This document shows, in pieces, positions 38,314-53,869 of a stretch of 64,000 nt of DNA. Both the position numbers and the translations under genes were made by a program. The number at the start of each line of letters is the position of its first letter. Position 1 is the first letter of the stretch. The stretch comes from Leptolyngbya subtilissima AS-A7 (GTDB lineage Bacteria; Cyanobacteriota; Cyanobacteriia; Phormidesmidales; Phormidesmidaceae): contig NZ_JAMPKY010000013.1 in assembly GCF_039962255.1 (NCBI RefSeq), forward strand, positions 62,001-126,000, given 5' to 3'. The notes below the pieces were generated by a model. The model did no database searches. It worked only from the letters and a program-made list of their open reading frames with translations, and was not told the origin of the DNA.

Positions 38314-38358
38314 TTGTGCGATCGCAGCCCACTGAATTTGCTGGGGAAGTTATCGGCG

Positions 38359-39405
38359 ATGAAAGTTGATGTATTTAAGATCGCCCAGAGTGGCCCCGAC
38401 GACCTGAGCGGTCTAGCCGCACTGGTGCAGCAAGGAACCTTAGACCCCAAAACCATTGTGGCGATTTTGGGTAAAACCGAGGGCAACGGCTGCGTGAATG
38501 ATTTCACCCGTGGGTTTGCGGTAGCCACCTTGAAGGGATACCTGAGGGGGCTGATGGGCGATGAGCTGCTCGACCAGGTGGTGTTTGTGATGTCGGGAGG
38601 CACTGAGGGAGTGCTAAGCCCTCACATGACAGTGTTTACCCGCCAGCCCCTCGCTCTGGCGGAACCGACTCAGACCGGACTGGCCCTGGGGATTTGCCAC
38701 ACCCGCGACTTCTCGACCGATGAAATTGGCACGTTGACGATGGTGGAGGTGGTGGCGGCGGGAGTAGAACGAGCGATCGCCGCCGCTGGCCTCACCGCCG
38801 AGGCGGTTCATTTTGTGCAAATTAAATGCCCGCTGATCACAGCGGCTCGCTACACCCAGGCCGCTATTACTCAGGACAGCTATAAATCGATGGCTTACTC
38901 TCGGGGAGCCTCGGCCCTCGGGGTCGCTCTGGCCTTGGGCGAAGTGCAGCGAGGCGATCTCACCGCCGCCGACATTTGTCACAACTACCGCCTCTATTCC
39001 TCAGTGGCTTCGACCTCGGCGGGGGTCGAGCTGCAAAACTGCGAAATTCTAGTGCTGGGCAATGCTCCCCAGTCCCATAGCCGCTACCGTATCGGCCACA
39101 GCGTCATGGCCCACGCCCTTGATATTGCCGCTATCAACCGAGCCATCCACAGCGCTGGGGGAGTGGGCGAAGGCGGCCAGATCGTGAATGTATTTGTCAA
39201 AGCCGAGGCCGACCCCTCGGGGCAGCTGCTCGGACACCGCCACACTATGCTCGACGACTCTGATATCAATCACACCCGGATGGCTAGGGCGGTAGTGGGG
39301 GCTGCGATCGCCGCCGTTGTGCAAGACCCGATGATCTATGTGTCAGGCGGCAGCGAGCACCAGGGGCCGTCGGGGGGCGGTCCGATTGCCGTCATCGTTG
39401 TATAA
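38359..39405 (+). CDS. Ring-opening amidohydrolase (cyanuric acid hydrolase/barbiturase family)
   Basis: A 348-residue protein of the rare three-fold-symmetric 'toblerone' family that opens cyanuric acid or barbituric acid rings. Each third has its Ser-Lys pair region: GKTEGNGCVNDFTRGFA with MSGGTEGVLSPHM; HFVQIKCPLIT with YSRGASALGVALALGEVQ; VFVKAEADPSGQLLGHRHTM then VSGGSEHQGPSGGGPIAVIV. Length is typical (350-370). ATG 38359 is preferred to an upstream in-frame codon in the terminator. Cyanobacterial members often act on cyclic amides from pyrimidine breakdown; the true substrate is unknown. Confidence 0.88.
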   Translation: MKVDVFKIAQSGPDDLSGLAALVQQGTLDPKTIVAILGKTEGNGCVNDFTRGFAVATLKGYLRGLMGDELLDQVVFVMSGGTEGVLSPHMTVFTRQPLALAEPTQTGLALGICHTRDFSTDEIGTLTMVEVVAAGVERAIAAAGLTAEAVHFVQIKCPLITAARYTQAAITQDSYKSMAYSRGASALGVALALGEVQRGDLTAADICHNYRLYSSVASTSAGVELQNCEILVLGNAPQSHSRYRIGHSVMAHALDIAAINRAIHSAGGVGEGGQIVNVFVKAEADPSGQLLGHRHTMLDDSDINHTRMARAVVGAAIAAVVQDPMIYVSGGSEHQGPSGGGPIAVIVV

Positions 39406-40177: not shown

Positions 40178-42394
40178 ATGGGATTTTCTGCCTCTAAGAC
40201 TTGCGCTTGTCAGAGTATTGGTCGATGTCAGGCTGGAGAGGCAGGTCGACTTTTTCTGTGGTTTCCAGTTCCCCATACGTTAGCGAAAGTCATTCCTTTT
40301 CTAAAACAAGAATCGCTCGAATTTGAGCTAATGCAGGAGCGGCCGGGTTTGACCATAGCCTGCAAATCTGGCCAAGCCCAGAATGTTGCCCAAAGATTGG
40401 CTCAGCTAGTAGCACCGAGAGAACTAAAAGAAACCCAAGTTCTATTTGTTCGGGGTGCGGTGCAGCCCCAGCTGCAAGATTTTAGCGACATTTCCTCCCT
40501 ACAGCGTTTTATCAAGATCAGTCAATCCGATTGGCTAGTGGATATGTTGACTAGCGATCGCATCACCAGCCATTTTCAACCAATTGTTTCCATTGACGAC
40601 ACAGCTCAAATCTATGGGTATGAATCCCTTTTGCGTGGGCTAGATGAACAGGGTAATTTGGTTATGCCAAGTTCCATTTTTGAGCTGGCAACCGAAGCGG
40701 GTTTGTTGCCGCAGCTAGACCGGGTGGCTCGCCTTAGCGCCATTAATCAAGCGAGTCAGCACAACTTGACGGGGCGTATTTTTATTAACTTTTCCCCCAC
40801 AGCGCTGTATGACCCAGTGTCTTGCCTGCGGAGCACAGTAGACGCCATTGATAGAGCTGGCATTCGCCACGACCAGGTTGTGTTCGAAGTTGTTGAGTCA
40901 GACAATCCTCAAGATTTAGACCACCTCAAAACCGTATTGAGATATTACCGAGATGCTGGTTTTGCCGTGGCCCTAGACGATTTGGGGTCTGGGTATTCTG
41001 GTCTGAACCTGCTCCATCAGCTACGTCCCGATTTCGTCAAGCTCGATATGGAGCTAATTCGAAACGTTCACCTTGACGTTTATAAAGCTTCCATTACTGA
41101 AAAGCTTTTAGAAATCGCGCAAAAACTGAATATTAAAACCGTTGCGGAAGGGATCGAATGCATTGAAGAGCTGAACTGGTTGCAGGAACGGGGTGCTACC
41201 TTCGCCCAGGGCTATCTGATTGCTAAACCCGCTGCTACACCGGCTAAAACGACGCCACGCTTCAACGCAAAAGCGGTGGCGCTCACCCCAGCGCCTTTGC
41301 AGCCAACGATGCAAAAAGTACAGCACCAAACTGCACCTGAGCGCATTGTTGCGGCCGTGACTCAACACATTCGACAATCGCTGAAGTTAGATGAGATTCT
41401 CCAAACTACAGCAGATGAAGTTCGACAGCTGTTTGAGGTCGATCGAGTCGTAATCTATCGGTTTGAACCTGACTGGAGCGGGTTAGTGGCGGTAGAGTCT
41501 TTGGCAGAGGGGTGCCCATCCATCTTAGGTTTCCATGTCATGGATACCTGCTTTAAGACGACCCACGCAGCCTACTACCAGCAGGGCAACACCCGGGCGA
41601 TCGAAGACATTGAAACGGCAGGGCTGATGTCGTGCCATATTGAACTGCTTCAAAGCCTGAATATTCGAGCGAATTTGATTGTGCCTATCCTGCAAAAAGA
41701 GCGGCTGTGGGGGCTTTTAATTGCCCACCAGTGCAACGAGACGCGCCAGTGGCAGCAGTCGGAGGTCAATTTACTTTATCAACTCGCTGGGCAAGCGGCG
41801 ATCGCCATTCAGCAAGCGGAGCTATATCACCAGCTGCAAACCGCTAATCAAGAGCTTCATCGCTTGGCTTCGGTAGATGGGTTAACCCAGCTGGCCAACC
41901 GTCGCTGCTTCGACGCTCGGCTGAGTGCAGAATGGCAACGGCTGGCCCGAGAGCAGTCTCCCCTATCTTTAATTTTGTGTGATGTAGACTGCTTCAAACT
42001 CTACAACGACACCCATGGCCACCTAGCTGGAGACGATGCTCTGCGGCAGGTAGCCAAAGCCATTGTGCAGGCGTCTAGGCGTCCATCCGATTTGGCAGCC
42101 CGCTACGGTGGCGAAGAGTTTGCGATTATTCTGCCAAATACCACCGCCGAGGGGGCGATCGCCGTGGTCGAAGCAATTCAGGCTAATTTGGCGGCTCTAC
42201 AACTGTCCCCTCCTCAATCTCAGACCAGTGACCTGGTGACGCTTAGCTTTGGCGTAGCAACTGTTGTGCCGCAGAGCCAGCTGTCGTCTGCAACGTTGAT
42301 CGCTACCGCTGATCAAGGGCTTTATCGAGCAAAAGCCCGAGGGAAAAACTGTGTGGTGCAGGTGAGCTATGGAGAAATAGCGACGTCATCCTAA
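40178..42394 (+). CDS. EAL - cyanobacteriochrome GAF - GGDEF protein (light-controlled c-di-GMP enzyme)
   Basis: A 738-residue protein. The EAL phosphodiesterase domain (about 128-350) keeps catalytic residues: YGYESLLRG, INFSPTAL, VFEVVES, LDDLGSGYSGL, FVKLD, AEGIE and QGYLIAKP. A GAF domain (about 385-560) has DTCF (Cys458) and SCHIELL (Cys486-His487), which are the second-Cys DXCF motif and chromophore-binding Cys-His of cyanobacteriochromes. The GGDEF domain (about 575-738) has GGEEF (644-648) and an inhibitory site RPSD just before. This order equals the C-terminal half of Cph2. Probably light sets the balance of cyclic-di-GMP synthesis and breakdown. The N-terminus has three Cys and no known domain. 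Confidence 0.85.
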   Translation: MGFSASKTCACQSIGRCQAGEAGRLFLWFPVPHTLAKVIPFLKQESLEFELMQERPGLTIACKSGQAQNVAQRLAQLVAPRELKETQVLFVRGAVQPQLQDFSDISSLQRFIKISQSDWLVDMLTSDRITSHFQPIVSIDDTAQIYGYESLLRGLDEQGNLVMPSSIFELATEAGLLPQLDRVARLSAINQASQHNLTGRIFINFSPTALYDPVSCLRSTVDAIDRAGIRHDQVVFEVVESDNPQDLDHLKTVLRYYRDAGFAVALDDLGSGYSGLNLLHQLRPDFVKLDMELIRNVHLDVYKASITEKLLEIAQKLNIKTVAEGIECIEELNWLQERGATFAQGYLIAKPAATPAKTTPRFNAKAVALTPAPLQPTMQKVQHQTAPERIVAAVTQHIRQSLKLDEILQTTADEVRQLFEVDRVVIYRFEPDWSGLVAVESLAEGCPSILGFHVMDTCFKTTHAAYYQQGNTRAIEDIETAGLMSCHIELLQSLNIRANLIVPILQKERLWGLLIAHQCNETRQWQQSEVNLLYQLAGQAAIAIQQAELYHQLQTANQELHRLASVDGLTQLANRRCFDARLSAEWQRLAREQSPLSLILCDVDCFKLYNDTHGHLAGDDALRQVAKAIVQASRRPSDLAARYGGEEFAIILPNTTAEGAIAVVEAIQANLAALQLSPPQSQTSDLVTLSFGVATVVPQSQLSSATLIATADQGLYRAKARGKNCVVQVSYGEIATSS

Positions 42395-42717
42395 CAATTT
42401 ACCGTTGTCAGGGCTGCGGTGCGAAGTAGCCAGATATAGCTACCTCACCTGAAGGTATTGACCGAAACGGCGATCGCGCTTTTGCGCCACTAGCCCTGAC
42501 TTGGAGATTACGCTAAATCCTGCTTGGCTACCCCCGATTCAGAAGGGCGAATGCAATAGAGTCTCCGGCTCGGCTATGCCTACGCCTCTACGGTTTGGCC
42601 TCTTGGGAATCGGGGTTGTTTGATTTGTATTTGGTACTAGACCCCGCTGAGCCTGCGCCTCGGGAACTCGGGAAGCGATCGCTGGTCAAAGAAACTGCGC
42701 AGCACGGTGAACTGTTG

Positions 42718-43361: not shown

Positions 43362-43739
43362 TCAGGGCTTCTGATAGCTGATCACGCGCACCGATGCCGC
43401 TGATGGTTCTTCGCTGAAGACCAGCACCCCTTCAGCTTGGGAGCGGGCAGGGATGAAGTCGAAGGTGGTGTTGGCCACTTCTTCCGGGCTGGTGGTTTCT
43501 AAGGTACCTTCAACCGTGACTTCGGCGGCGGTGGCGTCGCCTTCGTTGGTGATGGTAATGGGTAGGTAATAGTGGTCCTGGGCGGGCCGTACTTCACCCG
43601 GTTCCACCGTAAATTCGGCAGGTTTCGTCGATGGTTGAAGCCATAGCGAAGCCACCGTAGCAACTACCGCCGACAGCAACGTGAGGGAAATGCCGAGGGA
43701 AAACCATTCGGCTCGATTGCGGGTGGGCTTTTCAGACAT
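43362..43739 (-). CDS. TIGR02588-like single-helix protein
   Basis: From ATG 43739, 125 residues: a cytoplasmic start, one membrane helix (LGISLTLLSAVVATVASLWL), then an exported beta-sandwich (HYYLPITITNEGDATAAEVT, TTFDFIPARSQAEGVLVFSE). This matches the small family found beside TIGR02587 membrane proteins in cyanobacteria and some proteobacteria. Function unknown. It follows the larger membrane gene by 13 bp. Confidence 0.8.
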   Translation of the reverse strand: MSEKPTRNRAEWFSLGISLTLLSAVVATVASLWLQPSTKPAEFTVEPGEVRPAQDHYYLPITITNEGDATAAEVTVEGTLETTSPEEVANTTFDFIPARSQAEGVLVFSEEPSAASVRVISYQKP

Positions 43740-49557: not shown

Positions 49558-50574
49558 TCAAGCCTCGGGCCAAAGAGCTCGCAGGATAGGGGTAGTGCTA
49601 ACAGCGCCTGGGTTAACCGATTGCCCAGGGCTAGGGGGCATCACGTAGATAGCCTGGTACTGGTTGCGGCCTTGGGCCTTGGCCTGGTAGAGGGCCTGAT
49701 CGGCGGTAAACACCAAGTCAGAGGGCAAATAATCGGCCATGGGTAACACGTTGGCAACACCGCAGCTAATTGTGACGATCGCGCTGGGGGCTGTGTTGTG
49801 GGGCAATCCCCGTTGCTGAACCGCTGTCACCAGCCGCTGGCTGATGACGGTTGCCCCCTCCAAAGTGGTGTTGGGCAAAATAATGGCAAACTCTTCACCG
49901 CCGTAGCGGGTAACAATGTCGGCTGGGCGGCTAATGCACTGGCTGAGGGTTTTGGCCACTTCTTGAAGACAGCGATCGCCTGCCTGATGCCCATAGTGGT
50001 CGTTGTAGTCTTTGAAATGGTCAATGTCGCAGATCACCAGCGACAGCGACAGGTGTTCGCGCACACCCCGACCCCACTCCTGCAAGAGATATTCGTCAAA
50101 GCGGCGGCGGTTGGCCACCTGGGTGAGGCTGTCGATCATCGTCAGCTGCTGGAGCTGGTAGTTGGCCTCCCGCAGCTGAATCTCTAAGCGGTGCTGCAAA
50201 ATTAGCCGCCGCACCCGCTGGCGCAGCACTGCCCAGTTAATCGGCTTGGTGACATAGTCGACCACCCCAATTTCAAACGCCTGATCTACCGATTTTTCGT
50301 CCTCTAGGCCGGTAATCATCAGCACCGGTGCCAGGTTGCCCTGGGTTAAATCCTGTAGTCGTCGGCAGACCTCAAAGCCGTCTACCACCGGCATCAACGC
50401 GTCCAGCAGCACCAGATCGGGCACGTGATAAAAGTACAGGTTTAGGGCCGCTTCTCCATGGGCAGCTTCGATCACCTGGTAGCCCTCGCGCTCCAGATAG
50501 CGGGTCAGCATATGGCGGATAAACGGGTCATCGTCGGCTACCAAAATTACCGCTGAATCAGAATTGACTGGCAT
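49558..50574 (-). CDS. REC-GGDEF response regulator (diguanylate cyclase)
   Basis: A 338-residue protein: receiver domain (VILVADDDPFIRHMLTRYLE; acceptor Asp in LVLLDALMPVVDG; Lys in VTKPIN), then a GGDEF domain with RYGGEEFAIILPN, the active-site motif, and an inhibitory I-site RPAD five residues earlier. It should make cyclic-di-GMP when phosphorylated. It overlaps the upstream LOV-kinase gene by 17 bp on the same strand, so the kinase is its probable phospho-donor. Confidence 0.92.
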   Translation of the reverse strand: MPVNSDSAVILVADDDPFIRHMLTRYLEREGYQVIEAAHGEAALNLYFYHVPDLVLLDALMPVVDGFEVCRRLQDLTQGNLAPVLMITGLEDEKSVDQAFEIGVVDYVTKPINWAVLRQRVRRLILQHRLEIQLREANYQLQQLTMIDSLTQVANRRRFDEYLLQEWGRGVREHLSLSLVICDIDHFKDYNDHYGHQAGDRCLQEVAKTLSQCISRPADIVTRYGGEEFAIILPNTTLEGATVISQRLVTAVQQRGLPHNTAPSAIVTISCGVANVLPMADYLPSDLVFTADQALYQAKAQGRNQYQAIYVMPPSPGQSVNPGAVSTTPILRALWPEA

Positions 50575-53449
50575 GGTTGGTGACCTCCTGGGAAACCAAG
50601 GCAGACTGTAGGGCCGTTTTGACCTCAGCTAGAGCGTAGTGAATTGATTCCACCTGGTCAGCGACGAGCGGACTGGGGGCCTGGCGTAGGGCCGCTTCTA
50701 AATCTCGGCAGAGGACCGCGAGGTGGTCGGCACTCACGGAGGCGCTGCTCGACTTGAGGGTGTGGGCAGCCCGTTGCAGGGTGAGCCAGTCGTGCTGAGC
50801 CAGGGCAGCGAGCATGTCGGCCATGAGCTGGTCGGCACTCCCAAGGTAGCTGACAATCAGGTCGGCCATAAAGCTAGGGTCGCCGCCTACGGTGGTGGCA
50901 AAGGTGTGTAGTGCCATCAAATCGACCGCGAGGGCGGTGAGGGGGGCACCAGCCTCTAACACCCGAACGAGCTCCTCCAGGCGAATGGGTTTGCTGATGT
51001 AGTCATCCATGCCGGCCTGGAGACACTGTTCGCGATCGCCCTGCATGGCGTTGGCGGTGACGGCTACCAAGCGGGGGCGGCGGGTGGGCCAGCGCTGCAC
51101 GATCTGTCGGGCGGCGGCGAGGCCGTCCATTTCAGGCATTTGCACATCCATCAGCACCAGATCGTAGGGCTGCTGTTCGAGGGCGTCCAGCACCTCGTAA
51201 CCGTTGGCGGCTACATCGGCCCGGTAGCCCAGGTGCCGCAAAATTTGCAGGGCTACCTTTTGGTTCACTACATTATCTTCGGCTAGCAAAATTCGCTGAG
51301 GGCACCGCCGCCCCAGGTCGACGTCCATCAGAGCCGGTCGGGGGCGCGGCGATACACGCACGGCCTCTGGCTGTTCGGCCAGGGCAGCGGCCAGAGCGGC
51401 CATCAGCTGGTTCTGCTTGACGGGTTTGGTCAGGTAGGCAGCAAACAGGCCCTGCTGGGCAATGCTGTGGTGCCAGCCCAGAGAGGTCAGCATCACCAGG
51501 GGCAGCGATCGCTCCATAGACCGCTGGTGCAGGGCCTCGGCTAGAGCCAGACCGTCCATGCCCGGCATCTGCATATCTAAAATGGCTAGGTCAAAGCGCT
51601 GGGTCTCTAGGGCCTCTAAGGCGGCCAAGCCTGAGTCTACAGTCACCACAGCCATACCCCATCCCTGAAGCTGAAGCTGAAGAATTTTGCGGTTGGTAGC
51701 ATTGTCGTCTACCACCAGCAGATGACGGCCCTGGAGACTGTGGGCAGGGGGCGACCCGACCAGCCGCGGCGGTTGCGGATCAAGGGTGGCCTGCAGGGTG
51801 AAGTAAAAGGTTGACCCCTGACCCTCAACACTTTCTACCCAGAGCGTGCCCCCCATTAGTTCGCACAGCCGCTTGCTAATGGCCAGGCCCAGGCCGGTGC
51901 CGCCAAACTGCCGGGTGGTAGAGGCATCCACCTGGCTAAAGGGTTGGAACAGGCGGTGCAGACGAGCCGCCGGAATGCCAATGCCGGTATCTTTGACCGC
52001 CACTTGCAGGGTGACTTGGTCGCTGGTGGTCTGCGGTTGAGCCTGGACTGAAACAATCACTTCCCCATGGGGGGTGAACTTGATGGCGTTGTTGACCAAG
52101 TTGACGAGCACCTGACGCAGGCGGCTGACATCGCCCATCAGGTGTTGGGGTACCTGGGGAGGCAGCAGGTAGGCTAGCTCTAAGCCTTTCCCAGAAGCTT
52201 TAGCGGCCAGCAAATCCATGGCTTCTTCTAGGCAGGTGCGCAGGTTAAAGGGCTGGGTTTCTAGATCGAGCTTGCCCGACTCAATTTTTGAAAAGTCGAG
52301 GATGTCGTTAATGATGGTCAGCAGCGCATCGCTGGCGTTGCGAGTGGTTTCGACAAAGTCGCGCTGCTGGTCAGTGAGGGGGGTGTCAAGCAGCAGGCCG
52401 GTCATGCCGATCACGGCGTTCATGGGCGTGCGAATTTCGTGGCTCATCATGGCTAGAAACTCGCTTTTGGCCTGGTTGGCGGCCTCAGCGGCGCAGCGGG
52501 CCTGGTCGAGGTCTTGCAAGTGCTGGTGCAGCTGGGCTTCGGCAAGCTTGCGATCGCTAATGTCGGTCTGAATGCCCACAAAGTGAGTCAGCTGGCCGTG
52601 GGGGTCGTAAATCGGTGAAATACTGAGCTGGTTCCAGTATTGTTGGCCATCCTTGCGGTAGTTGATTGCCTCTATAGTGCAACCTTGGCCGCTGGCCATG
52701 GCTTGACGCAGGGTTTCTAGGCCAGATTGATCATGCTTGCCCCCCTGCAAAAAGCGGCAGTTGCGCCCCAGGGCTTCGGCGGCGGAGTAGCTAGTGATGC
52801 GCTCAAAGGCGGGGTTAACGTAAATTACTGGATTGTCGGGCTGGCGGGCATCGGTAATCACGATGCCGTTGCTGCTGGCGGCGATCGCCCGCTCTTGCAG
52901 GCGCAGGGTTTCCCGCAGTCGCTGACGCTCTAGGTCAGCCTGCTGAATCTGTTCGATCTGGTGGTGCAGATCGAGCTGGGCCACCACCTGGGCAGCCAGT
53001 ATTTCTAGGGCCTGCCGCTGCAAGGCGGTAAGGGTGCGAGGTACATGGTCAACCACGCAGAGGGTGCCGAGGGCGTAGCCATCGGTGGTGATCAGCGGCA
53101 TACCGGCGTAGAAGCGCAGATTCAACTCCCCAGTGACTAGGGGGTTATCAAAGAAACGTTTGTCTTCTAGGGCATTAGGCACCTCCATTAACTTCGGCTG
53201 CAAAATGGCGTAGGCGCAAAAAGCCACATCGCGGGTAGTTTCGGGTACAGCAACGCAGCCCACGCGGGCTTTGAACCACTGGCGATGCTGGTCGATGAGG
53301 CTAACCAGGGCGATGGGCACATCACACACCATTGCCGCTAGTCGAGTCAGATTGTCGAAGCCCTCGGCGGGGGGCGTGTCGAGAATGTGATAGTCGTGCA
53401 GCGCCTGCAAACGACAGGCTTCGTTGATGGGTAGGAGTGCAGGTTGCAT
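50558..53449 (-). CDS. GAF-LOV hybrid histidine kinase (blue-light sensor)
   Basis: From ATG 53449, 963 residues. A GAF domain (about 15-160) is followed by a PAS domain of LOV type (about 185-300): VNPAFERITSYSAAEALGRN then CRFLQGG gives the LOV core GRNCRFLQ with photo-adduct Cys231, and NYRKDGQQYWNQLSISPIYD and HFVGIQTDIS complete it. The kinase core has His337 (MMSHEIRTPMNAVIGM) and ATP-binding motifs (LVNNAIKFTPHGE, GTGLGLAIS). Two receiver domains (LAILDMQMPGMDG; LVLMDVQMPEMDG) and a C-terminal Hpt domain (AAHTLKSSSASVSA) follow. The start at 53524 is less likely. Output is the overlapping REC-GGDEF gene. Confidence 0.9.
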   Translation of the reverse strand: MQPALLPINEACRLQALHDYHILDTPPAEGFDNLTRLAAMVCDVPIALVSLIDQHRQWFKARVGCVAVPETTRDVAFCAYAILQPKLMEVPNALEDKRFFDNPLVTGELNLRFYAGMPLITTDGYALGTLCVVDHVPRTLTALQRQALEILAAQVVAQLDLHHQIEQIQQADLERQRLRETLRLQERAIAASSNGIVITDARQPDNPVIYVNPAFERITSYSAAEALGRNCRFLQGGKHDQSGLETLRQAMASGQGCTIEAINYRKDGQQYWNQLSISPIYDPHGQLTHFVGIQTDISDRKLAEAQLHQHLQDLDQARCAAEAANQAKSEFLAMMSHEIRTPMNAVIGMTGLLLDTPLTDQQRDFVETTRNASDALLTIINDILDFSKIESGKLDLETQPFNLRTCLEEAMDLLAAKASGKGLELAYLLPPQVPQHLMGDVSRLRQVLVNLVNNAIKFTPHGEVIVSVQAQPQTTSDQVTLQVAVKDTGIGIPAARLHRLFQPFSQVDASTTRQFGGTGLGLAISKRLCELMGGTLWVESVEGQGSTFYFTLQATLDPQPPRLVGSPPAHSLQGRHLLVVDDNATNRKILQLQLQGWGMAVVTVDSGLAALEALETQRFDLAILDMQMPGMDGLALAEALHQRSMERSLPLVMLTSLGWHHSIAQQGLFAAYLTKPVKQNQLMAALAAALAEQPEAVRVSPRPRPALMDVDLGRRCPQRILLAEDNVVNQKVALQILRHLGYRADVAANGYEVLDALEQQPYDLVLMDVQMPEMDGLAAARQIVQRWPTRRPRLVAVTANAMQGDREQCLQAGMDDYISKPIRLEELVRVLEAGAPLTALAVDLMALHTFATTVGGDPSFMADLIVSYLGSADQLMADMLAALAQHDWLTLQRAAHTLKSSSASVSADHLAVLCRDLEAALRQAPSPLVADQVESIHYALAEVKTALQSALVSQEVTNHASQF

Positions 53450-53869
53450 AGACCATGGCCCTTCAGAACAAAGACTCAGGGCGAGGCTGGTCTCGCAACC
53501 ACACCCCACTGAGGGAAGCGACATATCCTTCAGAGTACCCAGTTGGATGTATTAGGTTTTACCATTTTGGCTGGATCGGGGTCGGCAAAGATACTGAGCT
53601 GGGCAGTTGTCTATGCTCGTCCAAAGCTGAATTTGCTCAATGCTCAAGGCTAGCGACTGGCGCTGGGCCTGTTGCCAGGAGATTTCTCACTGCTGCGGAG
53701 TTGGGAGCCGAGATTGTGAGAACGGAGGTGGGCGGGGCGATCGCTCCTAATTCCAACCGGTGGGAACCTTAAATTCAGGGATTTATGGAGCAATCGAACT
53801 GCATCGCTGCGGTTGAGTTAGCTGTTGGATGCCCGGGTGCGTCTGGAGAGTTTTTTCTGAGGACTGGTG
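53450..53869. other. Promoter region of the LOV-kinase operon
   Basis: About 420 bp between divergent genes. Apart from the expected promoters I see no gene, repeat or strong hairpin. Confidence 0.4.

Follow-up and report, generated by a model that had tools for sequence, protein, structure and literature searches.

A cyanobacterial EAL-GAF-GGDEF protein with a predicted DXCF cyanobacteriochrome sensor: probably a light-colour-controlled cyclic-di-GMP enzyme, seemingly of separate origin from Cph2

The window analysed in this study is a stretch of 64,000 nucleotides from Leptolyngbya subtilissima AS-A7 (contig NZ_JAMPKY010000013.1, positions 62,001 to 126,000), and it carries an open reading frame of 2,217 bp (40178-42394, +) that opens with ATG and encodes 738 amino acids. 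The start codon is nearly fixed, since the stop-to-stop frame comprises just 739 codons. Pfam places an EAL domain at residues 120-351, a GAF domain at 404-544 and a GGDEF domain at 564-724, all well over cut-off. A preliminary description had reported an independent gene with the GAF domain between EAL and GGDEF, and the reading frame, its translation and the Pfam order bear this out, together with its coordinates and residue numbers. The features of the gene are as follows.

40178-42394, + strand: whole gene, N-EAL-GAF(CBCR)-GGDEF protein of 738 aa (ORF, translation, Pfam)
40202-40228, + strand: N-terminal cysteine motif CACQSIGRC, with Cys9, Cys11 and Cys17 (family alignment)
40241-40465, + strand: N-terminal domain, aa 22-96, predicted ferredoxin-like alpha/beta fold, includes Cys62 (structure model)
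40535-41230, + strand: EAL phosphodiesterase domain, aa 120-351, with E149, N204, E237, D267, D268, K288, E324 and Q344 (Pfam, alignment)
41246-41332, + strand: linker, aa 357-385, fast-evolving and of low model confidence (model, dN/dS)
41333-41857, + strand: predicted cyanobacteriochrome GAF region, aa 386-560, Pfam GAF 404-544 (Pfam, TePixJ alignment)
41543-41554, + strand: DTCF motif, second cysteine Cys458 at 41549-41551 (sequence, family alignment)
41633-41638, + strand: predicted canonical bilin-attachment site, Cys486-His487 (sequence, family alignment)
41756-41872, + strand: long GAF-to-GGDEF helix, aa 527-565 in the model (structure model)
41867-42349, + strand: GGDEF diguanylate cyclase domain, aa 564-724 (Pfam, WspR alignment)
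42080-42091, + strand: RPSD, possible RxxD product-inhibition (I) site (sequence)
42107-42121, + strand: GGEEF active-site motif (WspR alignment, family alignment)

A structure model of the full protein is of moderate confidence (pLDDT 74, pTM 0.56); a single continuous helix leads from GAF into GGDEF (aa 527-565), and the EAL-GAF linker has low confidence. The matches listed in a fold search with the full-length model were EAL and GGDEF chains.

The gene is preceded by transketolase-like, AtzD/TrzD-type amidohydrolase and maltose-acetyltransferase-like genes and followed by a DUF2391 gene, a pfkB-type kinase gene and a nucleoside transporter gene. The transketolase-like gene, the acetyltransferase-like gene, the gene described here and the reading frames at 43362 and 43753 keep the same order in all eight long-form loci examined from Nodosilinea-like strains; the gene for the ring-opening amidohydrolase (38314-39405, +), which adjoins the transketolase-like gene, is found in three of these eight loci, as is the reading frame at 42595. 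At the 13 further loci examined, none of the genes that flank this one in the window was found. The neighbours are metabolic or of no assigned function, and nothing in them points to an operon that includes the sensor gene.

Selection was estimated against a set of ten relatives, of which two (L060, L072) gave no row, one (L087) gave no ratio and one (L009) had too few changes, leaving six usable pairs (L010, L011, L014, L015, L017 and L018). Across these pairs dN/dS was 0.02-0.05 in the GAF, 0.045-0.06 in the EAL, 0.04-0.11 in the N-terminal domain, 0.07-0.14 in the GGDEF and 0.3-0.5 in the linker. The dN of the GAF was the lowest of all domains in six of eight pairs and tied in two (L009, L014), and by ratio the N-terminal domain and EAL fall slightly below the GAF in L015. 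Since the GAF ratios are this low in six pairs and the five-gene order is kept in 8/8 loci, the gene is real beyond chance.

The class of the GAF domain was judged from its cysteines and their surroundings, using a family alignment from which 15 of 112 sequences with identical ends were dropped, leaving 97 rows (66 long forms and 31 short forms). D456-T457-C458-F459 and S485-C486-H487 both lie inside the GAF. In a phmmer search of PDB sequences with a longer query, photoreceptor GAFs led the matches, with 6oap the best (E 8.8e-53); we take these leading entries to be cyanobacteriochromes, in line with papers on TePixJ. The preliminary description had proposed Cys458 and Cys486 as the cysteine pair of a DXCF-class cyanobacteriochrome, to be checked by alignment with characterised members, and that alignment agrees with it: against TePixJ (3vv4, E 4.9e-31; also 2m7u and 4fof/4glq) DTCF pairs with DPCF and C486-H487 with C-H, without gaps. 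The spacing from Cys458 to Cys486 is 28 residues, equal to that of TePixJ and the same in 66/66 long-form relatives. Both cysteines are kept in 64 of the 66 long rows (Cys458 in 64, Cys486 in 65, the following His in 65), the exceptions to the motifs being L088 (DTGF), L050 (CY) and L141, which has lost both cysteines. Cysteine conservation by itself proves little, because other GAF cysteines are conserved too (Cys519 in 66/66 and Cys446 in 56/66 long rows); it is the position of the two cysteines and their match to TePixJ that carry the assignment made here from sequence.

The preliminary description had staked its reading on the surrounding bilin-pocket residues, and for the most part it holds on this point. 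Equivalents of TePixJ Asp492 (D456), Cys494, Phe495, Cys522, His523 (the last two numbers counted on from Cys494) and the histidine of AHQ are kept, while T462, H463 and L490 stand where TePixJ has H498, W499 and Q526; at the W499 position His (33) and Arg (27) account for 60 of the 66 long rows. In the TePixJ crystal the B-ring propionate is described as contacting H498 and W499, and the chromophore as twisting towards Q526 and D492 (PMC6955287). A broken pocket had also been considered on account of the change from TePixJ Arg507 to Asn471, and was dropped: the propionate is described as held by H498 and W499, and the Arg507 contact as coming from a symmetry-related molecule (PMC6955287). The replacements at T462, H463 and L490 are not considered class-defining for DXCF cyanobacteriochromes. 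Typical DXCF GAFs are described as binding phycoviolobilin (PVB) made from phycocyanobilin (PCB) and as photoconverting between blue and green (PMC11284453). With the equivalents of H498, W499 and Q526 replaced, the colours may differ here. Judged by its sequence, the GAF is a DXCF cyanobacteriochrome whose pocket has its own tuning, with colours that cannot be read from the residues.

These three replacements, together with the existence of a relative with neither cysteine (L141), could also be read as signs of a degenerate or non-photochromic GAF, which would either bind bilin in a locked state or use its cysteines for redox sensing. We regard this as improbable, given that both cysteines are kept in nearly all long forms at an invariant spacing and that in none of the eight pairs does another domain have a lower dN than the GAF.

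Both enzyme domains have intact motifs, as the preliminary description had stated of their catalytic residues. The EAL aligns with a cyclic-dinucleotide phosphodiesterase of known structure (6ifq, E 3.8e-49), and all of its set of metal- and substrate-binding residues (E149, N204, E237, D267, D268, K288, E324 and Q344), which we take to be catalytic, is present; the set is kept in 66/66 long and 31/31 short relatives except for two gaps at E149 (64 long rows with E149, two with a gap). The GGDEF aligns with WspR (3i5a, E 3.4e-48) and has GGEEF together with D602 and D604, presumably the metal-binding aspartates of diguanylate cyclases; among the 66 long rows GGEEF is departed from only in L141 (RYSGGEF) and L140 (gap). 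An RxxD sequence (RPSD) stands five residues ahead of GGEEF, an arrangement that we assume to be that of the product-inhibition site, and is intact in only 32 of the 66 long rows. The best PDB sequence match of the EAL is a stand-alone EAL protein of Vibrio cholerae (6ifq, 6ij2), with 38% identity in structural alignment, and the NCBIfam RimA model NF052265 comes second in its list at 187.5 bits, below its cut-off of 430 bits. Unlike the window protein, the V. cholerae protein and RimA-type EAL proteins are described as having no GAF or GGDEF.

The 119 residues that precede the EAL are of a less familiar kind. Residues 1-125 gave no Pfam match up to E 1, and the N-terminal domain gave no match better than E 0.79 among PDB sequences and none at E 0.001 in Foldseek (best E 0.019, UreE). 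Modelled alone, residues 22-96 adopt a ferredoxin-like fold with the order beta-alpha-beta-beta-alpha-beta (pLDDT 79), and VIA-align Z scores reach at most 8.2 (PII-like and other small alpha/beta folds), which is not above the usual level for matchless models; the cysteine motif lies mostly within the first 16 residues, where the model has low confidence. An identity with a known sensor was accordingly rejected, there being no significant Pfam, PDB sequence or Foldseek match. The cysteines are nevertheless old in the family: Cys9 is present in 92 of 97 rows (four gaps, one Gln), Cys11 and Cys17 each in 62 and Cys62 in 63 of the 66 long rows, and in those distant short forms that were inspected the motif reads CxRC. 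A BLAST search with the window's N-terminal domain missed L137 and the partial L138, L140 and L141; L024, the same protein as L137, does align. The suggestion in the preliminary description that this N-terminus is new to the gene thus fails, given the 92/97 relatives with Cys9 and the existence of an N-EAL family (N-terminal domain and EAL) that lacks GAF-GGDEF.

A domain with four such cysteines invites the speculation of a switch with two inputs, in which the GAF would read light colour and the N-terminal domain (Cys9, Cys11, Cys17 and Cys62) would be a redox or metal sensor gating the EAL. We think this unlikely. If it were true, the cell would compare light with its redox or metal state within one molecule, and in relatives that have no light half the phosphodiesterase would answer to the second input only. 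As part of the same idea, the EAL, whose nearest solved structure by sequence is titled 'versatile', might cut another cyclic dinucleotide.

We propose instead that the protein is probably a light-colour-controlled cyclic-di-GMP enzyme; its architecture, both cysteines, the intact catalytic motifs and strong selection on the GAF support this reading, and the light control we infer from them. The GAF would bind phycocyanobilin at Cys486, with probable isomerisation to phycoviolobilin, and in the dark state Cys458 would make a second bond, to the bilin's C10, so that this form absorbs blue. Blue light would break the Cys458 bond to yield a longer-wave and probably green-absorbing form, and green light would reverse the change. 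The signal would run along the helix of residues 527-565 to the GGDEF, most likely with more cyclic-di-GMP synthesis in blue, and the N-terminal EAL would break the signal molecule down, whether constitutively or, on the pattern of SesC, more strongly in the green state. Against the mechanism stand the long forms L088, without the second cysteine, and L141, without both.

The expected direction follows known proteins. SesC (Tlr0911) of Thermosynechococcus is reported to respond to blue light with raised diguanylate cyclase (DGC) and lowered phosphodiesterase (PDE) activity and to green light with raised PDE and lowered DGC (PMC8846402, PMC9090330, PMC5871770), and blue-induced cyclic-di-GMP synthesis is likewise reported for SesA and Cph2 (PMC8846402, PMC5812497). 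By analogy with these three, blue should favour synthesis and green breakdown in the window protein. SesC, as described, resembles it in having a cyanobacteriochrome GAF with both GGDEF and EAL, so similar behaviour would be expected, but SesC is longer: about 3,400 bp are described as deleted inside the sesC reading frame, against 2,217 bp for the whole gene here. SesA, in which one cyanobacteriochrome GAF is fused to a GGDEF, shares the DXCF-GAF-GGDEF module and, as described, has no EAL. The TePixJ GAF (3vv4, 4glq) has both cysteines and the Asp492 and His523 equivalents in common with that of the window protein, and differs at H498/W499/Q526 (T462/H463/L490).

How far light reaches through the molecule is a separate matter. 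We have good confidence that the GGDEF would be under light control, given the continuous GAF-GGDEF helix of the model, and less for the EAL, whose linker to the GAF is modelled with low confidence. Because this linker is also fast-evolving, tight light control of the EAL is argued against, and since relatives without the sensor half survive, the N-EAL part can work without light. Light may thus drive the GGDEF half only, with the N-EAL part an independent phosphodiesterase, constitutive or regulated through its N-terminus, and the whole protein a cyclase with a built-in sink. This reading, which gains from the linker, from a helix that reaches the GGDEF only and from the occurrence of the N-EAL part alone in many genomes, deserves serious attention, though we rather doubt it: SesC, a protein with both activities, is controlled in both directions, and dimerisation through GAF-GGDEF could still gate the EAL.

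The preliminary description had equated the layout with the end of Cph2. The order EAL-cyanobacteriochrome-GGDEF is indeed that of the Cph2 C-terminus, but the equation does not extend to descent. The comparison was made with two proteins (L028, L025) standing in for Cph2 and called Cph2-like for their layout GGDEF-EAL-GAF-GGDEF. Their GAF-GGDEF parts are 48% and 50% identical to that of the window protein, and their EALs about 30%, as against 58-65% for the stand-alone N-EALs of a divergent short clade. When 74 EAL domains were placed in a tree, the 52 from the family all grouped in a single clade (support 100/97, branch 2.44) that contains neither the EALs of the two Cph2-like proteins nor 19 other rows from the window's own genome; one more own-genome row (L178) adjoins the family, with a very long branch (2.9) and an unsure placement. 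The GAF-GGDEF tree comprises 32 of the 44 hits found at E 1e-20, the 12 whose alignments were shorter than 300 residues (L027 among them) having been excluded, and it unites 16 sampled family rows in a clade (100/99) that excludes the two Cph2-like rows.

As both clades exclude the Cph2-like rows, the family seems, from these sequences, to have arisen apart from Cph2, by the joining of an N-EAL protein to a cyanobacteriochrome-GGDEF module, rather than as a Cph2 tail. That the window gene is a Cph2 fragment, the end of Cph2 minus its phytochrome half, would account for the shared domain order and is nonetheless very improbable. The EAL tree rejects it, the GAF-GGDEF clade speaks against it, and the N-terminal domain neither matches Pfam nor is modelled as a GGDEF. 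The window protein also differs from Cph2 in having neither the N-terminal GAF-GAF (GAF-PHY) module nor the first GGDEF, and by its sequence it is not a member of Cph2.

The closest outsiders to the window's GAF-GGDEF part are 58% identical to it, among them an Aphanothece protein of 697 aa with four CBS stretches, GAF and GGDEF, and two others equally close (G169, 1,600 aa; G390:C85, 1,141 aa). In the GAF-GGDEF tree the Aphanothece protein is the nearest outsider; the GAF-GGDEF half may stem from a SesA-like or from a Cph2-like source. At the Aphanothece locus (L116, 3666-7029) a CBS-GAF(DTCF)-GGDEF frame lies divergent to a stand-alone N-EAL gene, 94 bases apart, a single case, which suggestively places the two halves side by side.

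The family is widespread, occurring in Nodosilinea-like strains, Nostoc and others. In a search of 57 genomes, 26 of them of the window's genus (its own included), 11 of these 26 had the full protein, three the N-EAL part alone and one a GAF-GGDEF match only; the remaining 11 gave no match at E 1e-100, some of the assemblies being incomplete. Across 388 genomes of the class the N-EAL part occurs in 51 (E 1e-60), 23 of which have it in a reading frame of at least 689 aa, and in these same 23 genomes the GAF-GGDEF part is present too, with an identity of at least 68%. Among the best 80 of 92 loci in a scan of named genomes, the long form was seen in Nostoc, Calothrix, Chlorogloeopsis, Mojavia and others, and the short form in Microcoleus, Tychonema, Kamptonema and two Archangium (myxobacteria). 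An origin of the fusion inside the window's genus was rejected, as this wider distribution shows it to be older. The Archangium N-EAL genes (L135, L136; 6001-7071) are 51-52% identical to the window's, N-terminal domain included, and nest in the EAL tree within a clade of cyanobacterial short forms, possibly through gene transfer. The row L141 (3-1676), with EQHF and PHH in place of the bilin cysteine motifs and RYSGGEF, comes from a contig labelled Thermosynechococcus, a label that is doubtful for an assembly of 4.4 Mb.

The labels long and short require five changes on the EAL tree, and a topology in which the long rows stay united is rejected (p-AU 0.0018), a test that does not tell gains from losses. 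At one locus (L059) the start of a GGDEF, NGLTQVANRRCFDEVL, begins near 2667 in a different reading frame, where a shortened N-EAL gene ends; this decayed start therefore demonstrates one loss of the light half, and is the sole direct case. Remnants of the GGDEF half were sought in 34 short-form loci and L209, and besides L059 only two gave matches, which are an intact neighbour gene (L116) and a separate GGDEF gene (L126); a second match in L059 sits, by eye, in a separate kinase-like gene. In the window's genus the three short forms lie away from the window's locus, and so did not arise by simple truncation there: in G011 the short gene is at C7:1274669 and the acetyltransferase gene at C7:363164, in G003 and G023 the two are on different contigs, and of the nine other window neighbours that were tested, not one turned up near the short form (L209, L070, L080). 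It is possible that these short forms have moved or are a second copy.

A review of the literature on EAL-GAF-GGDEF proteins in cyanobacteria found no publication on this family in titles or the openings of abstracts; one paper deals with the complete set of 16 cyclic-di-GMP enzymes in Anabaena PCC 7120 (PMC13075795). If our reading is right, different EAL proteins gave rise to the EAL-cyanobacteriochrome-GGDEF arrangement at least twice, and Nostoc and other filamentous cyanobacteria commonly carry the version derived from N-EAL. Relatives that have the light half and relatives that lack it would allow a light-controlled phosphodiesterase to be compared with its light-independent counterpart in nature, and the compact form of 738 aa would be a candidate for optogenetic control of cyclic-di-GMP.

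The source genome (G000, 5.66 Mb) has 21 EAL-domain matches over cut-off, a rich cyclic-di-GMP network. A second cyclic-di-GMP gene lies in the window itself, 7 kb from the EAL-GAF-GGDEF gene: at 49558-53524 (-) the gene for a GGDEF response regulator (338 aa) overlaps the end of one for a hybrid histidine kinase of 988 aa with PAS, HisKA, two receivers and Hpt.
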